DNA of 64,000 nt from Gossypium raimondii (lineage: Eukaryota > Streptophyta > Magnoliopsida > Malvales > Malvaceae), in assembly GCF_025698545.1 (NCBI RefSeq), contig NC_068577.1, positions 4,001,501 through 4,065,500 of the forward strand, given 5' to 3'. Numbering within the stretch: position 1 is the first letter of the stretch; each line of letters begins with the position of its first letter. Shown here in pieces: positions 43,741 through 48,872 of this stretch. The position numbers and the translations under genes were made by a program. The notes below the pieces were generated by a model. That model was not told the origin of the DNA and made no database searches. It saw only the letters and a list, made by a program, of their open reading frames with translations.

Positions 43741-44475
43741 TACTACCGTAACATTTTAAACAATTTAACATTTTAATAATCTTACTATCATATTCTATTT
43801 CGATATAACATAAAAGTTGAATTTGAAAAAATTAAAATCTCTAATAATTTATATAATATAAAAACTTTTAACTATTAAATATATATGAATAAATATTATA
43901 TTCTAGATCAATATTAGAAAAATATTATAACATTTTGAAATTTTATATGTATCACATGTAAAACAATATTGATAAATTGAGTAATCAAACTTTAAAAAAA
44001 TCTACAAAATTTTATAAAAATTTAAAAGTTAGTTCAATTTTACATTTATATAAATAATAGTTTATTACACTAGACATTCTCAAACTACGATTCATATTTT
44101 AAATTAATTTGTAAACTTCAAAATGTTTCAATTGAATGCTTACTTATTCTCTCGATCTAGGCATTAGCTTAAACATTAAATATTAACTACATTTCTATAT
44201 ACTATCGTATTAATAACTTTGATCTAAGTTGTTTATGTTATTAGTTAAAATGTAATTAAAATTTGATTACATAGTTTAAATATTCACAGTTTTGAAATGT
44301 GTAATACAATTAACTCTATAAATAAATTTCACCTTGACTTAAAATTATTCCTATAATTTAATAATTTGTTGCAACCAAAAAAAATTATATACATTTTTGG
44401 TAAATTACAATAACAAAATAAAACTCGAACAGCAAACACGACTTAAACTCAGGCCACACCTGAAATGATGAACAC
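43741..44475. other. AT-rich intergenic DNA
   Basis: No gene, repeat boundary or other structure recognised. Confidence 0.5.
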
Positions 44476-45032
44476 CATTAATCGGGTTTTTTACCCAAAT
44501 AGGATAGAAAAAAAAATACTGAAATGGGATGTCAGAAAATTTTTTTACCAAAATAGGTTACTTTTTCATTGGAGCCTATTTGGTAGGCGCCAATGAATAA
44601 AATAATAATATTTTTTTTAATAAAATATAATTTTATACTTTTCCGGGTTAGTATATAACCCGTATAATACATAGTATTGGCGCCTATCTGGGAGGCGCCA
44701 ATGGTGGTGCCTACCTGGGAGGCGCCAATGATGGTGCCTCTCTAAGAGGCGCCAATGCTGTTATTTTTCCCTATAAATACCCCCAACACAAACATAAATT
44801 TTACTCCAGAAAGAAATAAGAAGGAAGGAAGCAGAAGAAAAGAATGAAGGAAAAGAAGAAAAAAATTAGGTATGTTGGTTTTTCTTTTTAAATAGAATGT
44901 AGAGTATTGTTAGTAATTTTATTATTTGAAAGTTATTTTGTCATGTTATTAATTTTGTTAGCTTCTGAGGTTGTTTATTATTAGATAAGAACTATCATTG
45001 CATAAATATGAGGTTGTTTATTACAAAAACCC

Positions 45033-46370
45033 CTAAAATTGATGGTTTGATGGTGTAGTTCTAGGGGTATATTTTTGTGGAGCTCGACGCTCACGTTGTG
45101 GGCGATTACGGTTATCAACATTCTCTTCGACAGTATGTCGGGGTGTGTGAAACATAGATGAATAATCATATGTCTCAAATGCCATCGATGAACTTGATCC
45201 GGGAGGAGAGGAGTACGACGGTGGATATTGGCCGGAAGGAGCGGAGTACTGAGGTGGATACGAGGCCACGAAATAGTCATCGCCCTCTAATTCTGGATGA
45301 TAAGAACTATCCCTAGAATGTAGTTCTGGGTCTGGCTCTGGCTCTGGCTCCGGTGCATGATGCAGATCTCGAAGGGGTTGCGTAATTCGTGTCGTATATG
45401 GAGGGACTACAATCGACCGCCCACCAAACAGAAATGGTTTCCCTGTCTCACAGTACCACTGCATATACTCTAAAGAGGGCTGCAAATCCGGAGCACGATC
45501 CATCTGAGGTACCCTCCCGAACCGGTTGTTCCATATCGTAATGTATTCTTCGTGCACTTCTTCCCAATTATCTCCATACCTCCCCTTCTTGCTCATCCCA
45601 TGGATCTCCTCCAATTGTACTGGCAGTGTCGGGATATACTGTATGCAACCGAACTGCCGGAGTACTCGATTGCCATGATACCACTCCACTACGTTAAAAT
45701 TGATAATGGGTGCGCTAATGCACCATAGGTTTGAGTGGACGTGGGCAGATGATGGGATAACTGCCATAATTTCCGGAGTAGAATACGGCATCCAAATGAA
45801 CTGCACAGTTAATAACGTTGTTATATTAACGCGGGTTGAGTGAGATAAAATAATAAAATTAAGTTTATATTCGAAAAATTCACCCCCTCTCCAGCATGAT
45901 TCTCAATCATTAGACGATATATCGGAACCGTCTGTGACTTTTCGATACCCGGATTACTACTCCACCTACGAAAACAAAAATGTAGCCATGAAAATCTCAA
46001 ACTGGTAAATTTCCCCTGACTTGGCGAGCGTCCAAGTAATTCATTGCAAAGGGTAGCCGGCCTAGAGATTGAACTTACGCCTGTGACCGTATTCCGTCTA
46101 TGGAAGCCCGAGTAGATCTGCAACATCCTCTAGAGTGACAAGACACTCTCCGCACGCAGATGAAATGTGGGTCTCCTAAGCCATCGCCGACTAAAGCGGA
46201 AATCAAGTCGTATCGCAGATCAAAAGTCCGAATCAATGCCGCGGATCCGAACCCGCTAACTCTAAGTATGGTATTAGGCGTTCATCCGGTGAAACCCTAC
46301 ACTATTAACACGGCCCCTCAATGCACTGCATTTAACCACGACATTATTAAATTAGCAAAATAGTTAATAC
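45033..46370 (-). pseudogene. Plant mobile domain (PMD/MAIN-like) gene, decayed
   Basis: Minus-strand coding of the aminotransferase-like plant mobile domain, the family of MAIN, MAIL1 and 'PP7 long form homolog' proteins. In order: SGFGSAALIRTFDLRYDLIS and a GECLVTLEDVADLLGLP-like segment (about 46330-46080), then LCNELLGRSPSQGKFTSLRF. An intron is likely from about 45890 (GTGAAT) to about 45802 (CTGTGCAG). The large exon down to 45033 contains FIWMPYSTPEIMAVIP, NFNVVEWYHGNRVLRQFGC and WEEVHEEYITIWNNRFGRVP. It ends in a Pro/Ser/Glu-rich tail and RERRAPQKYTPRTTP. The 5' leader is probably the purine-rich stretch at about 47525-47620, which ends in a GTAATG donor. PMD proteins occur both as host silencing factors and inside transposons. 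The N-terminal part is broken by several frame changes, but the C-terminal 250 codons are open. Confidence 0.75.
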
Positions 46371-46859
46371 AATATAATTTAATTCAACAAATAACATGAA
46401 TATCAAAATAAATTTTATTACCATCTCATTAATAGTACTTGATATGTGATTATTATTATTAATTAGAGAACCCATTTCCGCAAATCGCAATAAAAAAATG
46501 AATTCAGATTAATTTGCTTCAAAAATCAATAATTACTTGTTAAATAAATACAAAATCAAATAAAATTTAATTATATAAAAGTTACATTATATAAAAATTA
46601 AATGAGTTAACAACAACTATATGATTAAAAAAGTCAGTTATAATTAAACTTTTAATAAAATGATTTTTAATTTTTTATAATTAAACTTTTAATGAAATGA
46701 TTTTAATTTTTTATAAACTTTATATGTTAAACTCACCAAATACTAAACTAAACACAACAACTTATAGCTTAATCCTAAATTACTAATAAATTAAATTTTA
46801 AATAATTACAAACACAAAATATTGTGAATTTTTCCCAAATTACTAACAAATTAATTATA

Positions 46860-47390
46860 AAATAATTACAATATTCATACAAAAATTACAATATTACAAT
46901 ATATCCCCACATTACAATATTCATACAAAATTACAATATTACAATATTCATACAAAAAATTGCAATATTCATACAAAATTATAATATTACAATATTCATA
47001 CAACATTACAATATTCATAAAAAATATAATATTCATACAAAATTACAATATTACAATATTCATACAAAAAATTGCAATATTCATACAAATTTATAATATT
47101 ACAATATTCATACAAAAAATATAATATTCATACAAAATTACAAAATTACAATATTCATACAAAAAATGCAATATTCATACAAAACTATAATATTACAATA
47201 TTCATACAAAAATTTATAATATTCATACAAAATTACAATATTCATACAAAAATTACTAATCCAAAACTATAAATACAAATTTAATTATAAAATAATTACA
47301 ATATTCATACAACATTACAATATTCATAAAAAATTATAATATTCATACAAAAATTTAAAATATTCATACAAAATTCTAATCTAAACTATA
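46860..47390. repeat. Tandem ACAATATTCATACAAAATT array
   Basis: More than 20 degenerate copies of a short unit, consensus about TACAATATTCATACAAAAAT with a variable 10-25-bp period. The array lies in the presumed first intron of the PMD gene inside the TIR element. Confidence 0.9.
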
Positions 47391-47956
47391 AACATAAATA
47401 TAGATAATTTATAATTAATAATTAATAACAAAAATTCACAATATTTTCTAAAATATATCCTAAAAATTTCACAAACTATAAACCTTTTAAATTATAAACA
47501 AAATTATTTATTTAAAAATACATTACCTTTTTTTTTTCTTTCTTCTTCTTCTTCTCCTTTCTCTCTCTCTTTTTTTTTCTCTACCGTGTGGACTGATTTT
47601 GGGACAATTTGCTATTACTTATAGCAAAAATAAAAGGTTATGAAGGGACAATTCACTAGCAGCAGCAGCATGCAGGGGGGCAGACACACCATTGGCGCCT
47701 CTCCATCAGGCTCCTTCATTGGCGCCTACTTGAGAGGCGCCACCAGACACGACTCGTATTTTGACCCGTATTTTTTTTAAAAAATATTTAAAAAATATAA
47801 AATTATATTTTATTAAATTTTTTTATTATTATTTTATTCATTGGCGCCTACCAAATAGGTTCCAATGAAAAAGTAACCTATTTTGGTAAAATTTTTTTCT
47901 GACATCCCATTTCAGTATTTTTTTCTATCCTATTTGGGTAAAAAACCCCATTAACC

Positions 47957-48872
47957 ATTAGGCCATTACATGAATTAAAAAAATTTAAAATTGAACCCTT
48001 TAAAATAAACAAACAAAAAAAAATCTAAAAGAGATAATACTCCTAAAGCTTCTTTTTTTTTGCCAGAGATAGGTAAAAGTCTCAAAGTCAGGTTACAGTT
48101 TCCTAAATTAAACAAATGGTCAACTATGAGAAGACTTTTTTATCAGTTGTTTTATTTTATTTTTAATTTAATTATTTTTAAAAATTAAAATTTACATCTC
48201 AACTCAAATAATTTTTATTAAATTTATTAATTAAAATATCATGTGAAAATAATAAGTTGATATAATATTATATTTAGATGTGAATAGGATTTTTCTTTTT
48301 GGACAAATTCATAGCTAGATTGCCTTTAATGTGTTTTTCTTGTAGAATTTCTTGAATTTTATAGGAATCATTAAACATGTGCAATACTTCATTGAGAAAG
48401 TCATTTTGTTAATTTCTCCTCAATATTGTTAGCCATTTTTGGAACATATTTCAACCACCACTTCTTTTCTTTAATTAGAATATGTTAAATCCTCTTAATT
48501 AGAATTGATGTTGATCCTTCAAGTTTACTACCACTAATAGCTAAATTAGAACACATGGACCAACCACACAATTTATGCATAATATAAGGACTAATAATAA
48601 AATTATAGGACTTAGATTATATAGTTTAAGCGAAAGAACTAATTTAAAACATAGGCATTAATTAAAGGACTTTTAGTGGAAGTAATCCTTACAGGATACA
48701 GGATACAGGATACAGGATACAGGAGCCTGGAGCCATATGTTATATACAGTACACAGGACGTTGTTGCAGTTTCATTGCTTTTTCCTTCACCGAATTACGG
48801 CTTTGTTTAGCTTAGTCTTCCATTAACAGTTGATTCTTTTGAAGAATCTAATTACCCTTTTTATCCTCCGTC
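47957..48872. other. Intergenic DNA before the wax synthase gene
   Basis: No gene. A heptanucleotide ACAGGAT is repeated about five times at 48690-48724, about 150-180 bp upstream of the WSD start codon. The promoter lies in the right part but no clear TATA box was chosen. Confidence 0.6.
48690..48724. repeat. (ACAGGAT)n minisatellite
   Basis: Five near-perfect heptamers. It lies in the 5' region of the wax synthase gene. Confidence 0.92.

Follow-up and report, generated by a model that had tools for sequence, protein, structure and literature searches.

The window, a 64,000-nucleotide stretch of Gossypium raimondii contig NC_068577.1, contains an element with terminal inverted repeats (TIRs) whose only recognisable cargo is a gene for a plant-mobile-domain (PMD) protein. 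The locus raises the question of whether this is an element dedicated to a PMD protein, as the initial annotation proposed, or a part of a larger transposon. The element is a deletion derivative of an already known transposon kind, and the proposed new kind of element gives way to a large, abundant family of plant Mutator-like elements (MULEs) of documented type.

Ends and insertion site of the element

The element occupies positions 44484–47947 (Table 1). The arms at 44484–44610 and 47824–47948 match as an inverted repeat at 95%, bearing out the near-identical TIRs noted initially, and their ungapped inner 101 nt match at 96%. The homology runs further inward, up to the limits given in the table, to give TIRs of ~127–157 bp with 95–96% identity. 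The 8-bp near-duplication described initially should be corrected to a 9-bp target-site duplication (TSD) with one mismatch, which places the right end of the element at 47947. This end fits the other members of the family, since 19 of the 22 elements tested have an exact TSD of 8–10 bp; the window copy has 8/9 and L016 7/8 matching positions, and L012 has none. Among 462 mismatched flank pairs used as a control, no pair scored as high as an exact duplication, and two scored as high as the window copy.

When the flanks of the window element were joined without the element and searched, 40 places of 128 candidates were scored, two of which were the window's own flanks. At 35 of the 38 other places, the match crosses the insertion point by ~15–36 bp with 71–81% identity, and at three it ends at or before this point. 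The continuity at the 35 places indicates that the element lies within a dispersed repeat and is absent from the repeat's other copies, and it provides the empty sites that had been called for at the outset. The repeat around the element comprises the flanks ~44394–44483 and 47957–47991, and its 38 further scored places are 71–81% identical to them.

Table 1. Features of the element in the window (positions in the window)
Feature	Position	Strand	Remark
Left TSD, CCATTAATC, 9 bp	44475..44483	.	8/9 match with 47948–47956
Left TIR, starts GGGTTTTTTACCCAA	44484..44642	+
Subterminal array, 27-bp period, 3.0 copies, GGCGCCAAT cores	44678..44757	+	Cores E2F-like/CCAAT-like by resemblance only
TATAAA	44772..44777	+	22 bp past start of last array core; putative promoter of the lost transposase gene
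Transposase-deletion junction (approximate) with short filler	44968..44974	.	Among 40 scored hits, common only to L009
Last PMD exon (C-terminal portion of the domain plus Pro/Glu-rich tail)	45033..45800	-	Open
Middle PMD exon (proposed)	45884..45965	-	Splice-like boundaries, also in L009 and L025
PMD exon 1 remnant (start approximate)	45981..46345	-	Several small gaps; ~400 bp missing at 45980/45981
AT-rich minisatellite between PMD leader and exon 1	46860..47375	.	Probably 5' intron
Purine-rich PMD leader (putative, from sequence)	47500..47600	-
Subterminal array, PMD end	47686..47745	-
Right TIR	47791..47947	-
Right TSD, CCATTAACC	47948..47956	.	8/9 match with 44475–44483

PMD gene of the window copy

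The PMD profile PF10536 matches the minus-strand open frame 45033–45902 with an E-value of 7e-16 at profile positions 226–346 of 347 (one of the three window frames scanned). The match, the splice-like boundaries and the purine-rich leader agree with the initial description of a PMD gene with a leader, introns and a Pro-rich tail, but the gene is broken. Compared with two other copies of the family, L009 and L025, exon 1 contains several small gaps, and ~400 bp is gone, which takes in the remainder of exon 1 and the greater part of the intron that follows. Because of these losses, the window copy encodes no whole PMD protein. Its domain is confined to profile positions 226–346 with a broken exon 1; exon 1 of L025 gives positions 1–190. 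The PMD gene of the window copy is a pseudogene. The minisatellite upstream of exon 1 consists of ATTACAATATTCATACAAAA-like units, and its structure varies from copy to copy. A phmmer search with exon 1 of L025 found no solved structure for PMD (the one chain listed had E 0.4), and none of four PMD proteins matched an NCBIfam model.

Relatives of the element in the genome

The left 217 bases of the element were used as an end query against the 751-Mb assembly. The 40 end matches scored of 393 candidates, the window's own included, are 89–100% identical, far more than would be expected by chance. The TIR search suggested initially thus reveals a multicopy family. The 20 next-best matches (L009–L028) were taken out for study, and both ends are present in 19 of them; the second end was not found in L026. 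Seven of the copies are 6.6–7.9 kb long (L010, L011, L013, L019, L022, L025 and L027), L009 is 3.9 kb, and eleven are 1.2–2.9 kb. Two PMD and three transposase queries all match in each of the seven long copies, the lowest coverage being 183 of 222, while only the PMD queries match in L009. Nine of the eleven short copies match none of the queries; a transposase remnant is left in L015 and in L018, the latter also retaining 36 residues from PMD exon 1. L034, which was added because two end matches stood 7.1 kb apart, has both genes, and L035 has PMD with a partial transposase.

In the long copies, the transposase and PMD genes are convergent on opposite strands. The gene order and the kind of TIR are the same in the eight long copies with mapped ends (the seven and L034), with the PMD gene lying between the TIRs. 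Pfam searches of the transposase frames of L013 and L019 detected DBD_Tnp_Mut, MULE and SWIM, all three above their cut-offs, and the DBD_Tnp_Mut match in L029 is below the cut-off (22.9 of 25). The family has the features of MULEs, namely a family-encoded MULE/MuDR transposase (in the full-length relatives only), shared TIRs, TSDs of 8–10 bp and unoccupied target sites. Many of its transposase and PMD frames contain stops or frameshifts.

The additional protein that the initial annotation suggested looking for in other copies is this MuDR-type transposase, which accompanies PMD in all eight long copies. An element dedicated to PMD is ruled out for the copies examined, since the long copies contain transposase and the window copy arose from such an element by deletion. 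The converse possibility, TIRs of a different element surrounding an unrelated host PMD gene, was not seen either: in the eight copies, PMD lies between TIRs of the same type.

Three individual loci should also be mentioned. L027 (7.9 kb) has extra inner TIRs, which look like those of a short family member nested inside it. Both ends of L034 match the query of the PMD-end type, as if one end had been exchanged. L047 (C2:45201300) was suspected of being a recombinant of the two lineages A and B described below, judging from uneven protein identities, but all 15 of its 250-bp windows are nearer lineage A.

Loss of the transposase at a shared junction

Inside the window element, the three transposase queries found no match (0/348, 0/222 and 0/288 residues), as the initial annotation had seen. 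Relative to the full-length copies, ~2.8 kb is absent from both the window copy and L009. The junction, which includes a short filler, is identical in the two. When a sequence spanning it was used as query, only these two copies matched over its whole length, and the other 38 of the 40 hits scored (300 candidates) matched on one side only. The TSDs of the window copy and L009 differ. The same junction at two sites with different TSDs indicates at least one movement of a copy that already lacked the transposase. In their last PMD exon, the two copies are 98% identical. The ~400 bp of exon and intron lost from the window copy is retained in L009, whose exon 1 has one in-frame TGA. A whole PMD protein would thus come from neither copy as it stands, given the gaps and the ~400-bp loss in the one and the TGA in the other.

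Selection on the PMD gene

Selection was assessed between the lineage of the window element (lineage A, 10 loci) and lineage B (5 loci, L029–L033). The lineage B loci, whose element ends are outside the mapping, were chosen for open frames, a choice that leans towards constraint. Identity between B and A is 64–67% for PMD exon 1 (four loci; L031 is broken) and 84–87% for the transposase core. Stop codons were skipped, and the comparison was made without the window copy (all parts), L019 and L031 (PMD exon 1), and several frameshifted or partial transposase parts, namely those of L027 and L034 (N-terminal), L022 and L035 (core) and L019, L032 and L035 (C-terminal); L009 has no transposase.

The median dN/dS between A and B is 0.16 for PMD exon 1 (36 pairs) and 0.26 for the last PMD exon (50 pairs), the whole range being 0.13–0.38 over 86 non-independent pairs. 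For the transposase, the corresponding medians are 0.40 (N-terminal part, 35 pairs), 0.09 (core, 35 pairs) and 0.19 (C-terminal part, 28 pairs). The 95% bootstrap intervals for five A–B pairs of PMD span 0.07–0.34 with upper limits of 0.20–0.34, where the PMD dS of 1.2–1.7 is near saturation and 1 to 72 of 1000 bootstrap samples were dropped. Two PMD pairs within B give 0.38 (bootstrap 0.23–0.62). Within lineage A, the median PMD ratio is 0.5–0.6, as expected of copies decaying after insertion. These values indicate that the PMD gene is under purifying selection between two MULE lineages at a level comparable to the transposase parts, in a test that amounts to a comparison across a single deep divergence. 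The low A–B ratio further suggests that PMD in this family is probably a working accessory gene. The initial idea of a PMD protein serving its element remains reasonable in this form and gains support from the selection seen between the two lineages. As a separate observation, dS between A and B at the same loci is ~1.5 for PMD and 0.6–0.9 for transposase; a difference in rate and an exchange of transposase parts are both options.

Position of the PMD proteins in a tree

A PMD tree of 23 rows was built, in which L009 stands for the window copy because exon 1 of the latter is too broken. The tree keeps the MULE PMDs of lineages A and B together (branch 89/91, not starred), and L009 groups with them, apart from four host-like PMD rows (L036, L037, L038 and L043, the last with two stops). 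L036, L037 and L038 (C1, C3 and C13) contain the whole PMD domain in a single open frame of 651–887 aa with no stops and are far from the transposon PMDs; they are probably host genes. L042 is presumably MAIL2-like. L039, L040, L041 and L044 represent a further recurrent PMD group (profile from 11) that is distinct in the tree from both MULE lineages.

Origin of the window element and role of PMD

We consider it about 93% probable that the window element is a non-autonomous, internal-deletion derivative of a MULE. Its full-length relatives are MULEs of ~6.6 kb with these TIRs and TSDs of 8–10 bp, in which MuDR-type transposase and PMD genes converge from opposite ends. A 2.8-kb deletion with a short filler took the transposase out in the window lineage. 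The transposase-less copy was presumably moved in trans by the transposase of full-length relatives acting on its TIRs, and the window copy later lost part of PMD exon 1. The PMD of the family is probably a selected accessory protein. The PMD protein may help the element, and, if a level of action is to be named, chromatin or silencing rather than catalysis is our tentative choice.

The common transposase-less structure of the window copy and L009 at two sites, together with their 98% identical last PMD exon, could be taken to mean a transposon family dedicated to PMD alone. In such a family, PMD itself would drive mobility or protect the element, and the transposase would come from elsewhere by design. 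Against this reading, the junction is found in only 2 of 40 scored hits, PMD is broken in the window copy (gaps and the 400-bp loss) and interrupted by one in-frame TGA in L009, and transposase sequence is present in all eight long copies whose ends were mapped; we regard it as very improbable. Still harder to credit is a Pack-MULE, that is, MULE TIRs around a captured fragment of an unrelated host PMD gene. Pack-MULEs are numerous in plants according to the accessible part of PMC6446971, and the window copy has no transposase, but the same PMD gene occupies the same place in full-length elements, and L009, in place of the window copy, falls among the MULE PMDs in the tree rather than beside the four host-like PMD genes, three of which are in one open frame. 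Transposase is thus absent from the window copy, but the PMD gene is the family's own.

The selected role of PMD in the preferred reading should be weighed against a functionless passenger that looks conserved only because its amplifications were few and recent. The ratios of 0.5–0.6 within lineage A and the stops in many copies agree with a passenger, whereas the A–B range of 0.13–0.38, comparable to that of the transposase of the same elements, does not, so that a passenger is unlikely.

Relation to known elements

In the sections of PMC6446971 available, the MULE groups with an antisense PMD are MUDR group 50, MUDRAVI2, MDR and MULE-Solanaceae_1, group 50 includes one or more elements of Gossypium raimondii, and the TSD range of MULEs is quoted as 8–11 bp. 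The family described here has in common with these groups, as far as that part of the paper describes them, a SWIM-finger MULE transposase, TIRs, TSDs of 9–10 bp and an antisense PMD; unlike them, the window copy is without a transposase and its PMD is broken. The antisense PMD, SWIM finger and 9–10 bp TSD of group 50 are all present in the family but are shared by other groups and are not diagnostic. PMC5418596, in its accessible portion, describes a MULE-captured PMD-C alongside the silencing factors MAIN and MAIL1, and its authors speculate that the captured protein serves anti-silencing of the transposon. PMD is encoded within a MULE there as here, but the excerpt concerns PMD–transposase fusions (grasses, Amborella), in contrast to the separate convergent PMD gene in the present family. 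A counter-silencing role of PMD is proposed in the available text of both PMC5418596 and PMC8616336.

In titles and abstract openings on PMD with transposons, MULEs or Gossypium and on E2F with Mutator ends (few subscription journals), the family, the selection test and the array described below were not described. What is new here is the evidence of purifying selection on a MULE PMD gene and the retention, in two lineages, of a 27-bp array ahead of the transposase TATA box. Both offer tangible starting points for examining the proposal that PMD proteins are employed by transposons to counter silencing that itself relies on PMD.

Subterminal arrays

The motif TTGGCGS occurs in the outer 450 bp of 20 lineage A elements at 8.0 per kb, in their middle at 0.27, in shuffled ends at 0.18 and in the rest of the window at 0.017; the array units are tandem repeats, so that these counts are not independent. 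The looser motif WTTSSCSS, an E2F consensus, gives 8.1, 0.62, 1.44 and 0.27 per kb, respectively. All five lineage B loci have core repeats at 27-bp spacing at the transposase end, with different spacers and the core turned round. In five of the nine arrays compared (the window, L025, L029, L030 and L031), the last core begins 19 or 22 bp before TATAAA, and in three (L010, L032 and L033), it is exactly 27 bp further away. No TATAAA was seen in L034, the end of which resembles the PMD end of other copies. An array of TTGGCG cores thus precedes a TATA box in 8/9 arrays and is kept in two diverged lineages. We read the array as a control region of the transposase promoter.

The window core, ATTGGCGCC, is one base off the E2F consensus TTTSSCGSS as it appears in the printed text available, and CCAAT is also present inside the lineage A array units. 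A binding factor is therefore only suggested, and the likeness of the core to an E2F site is suggestive only. E2F sites in plant MITEs, MULE-type among them (Henaff et al. 2014), are cited in the available part of PMC12595863; by comparison, the core here is only E2F-like and is arranged in an array of 27-bp period before a TATA box.

VANDAL21, as far as PMC5735166 is available, resembles the present family as a MULE with a further protein, VANC, that has highly variable regions, and with short tandem noncoding motifs. VANC is not described as a PMD protein in that part of the paper. A VANC-type anti-silencing system has a further protein that binds such tandem motifs and strips DNA methylation; the resemblance of the present family lies in the arrays. 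A long shot, in our view, is that the transposon PMD would counter silencing in a sequence-specific way, as VANC does but with a PMD protein. PMD, or a host cell-cycle factor working with it, would then act at the 27-bp arrays before the transposase TATA box. If so, the element would be expressed in dividing cells despite silencing of the MAIN/MAIL type. The short non-coding copies still carry such cores, indicating that the family has dispersed them through the genome.
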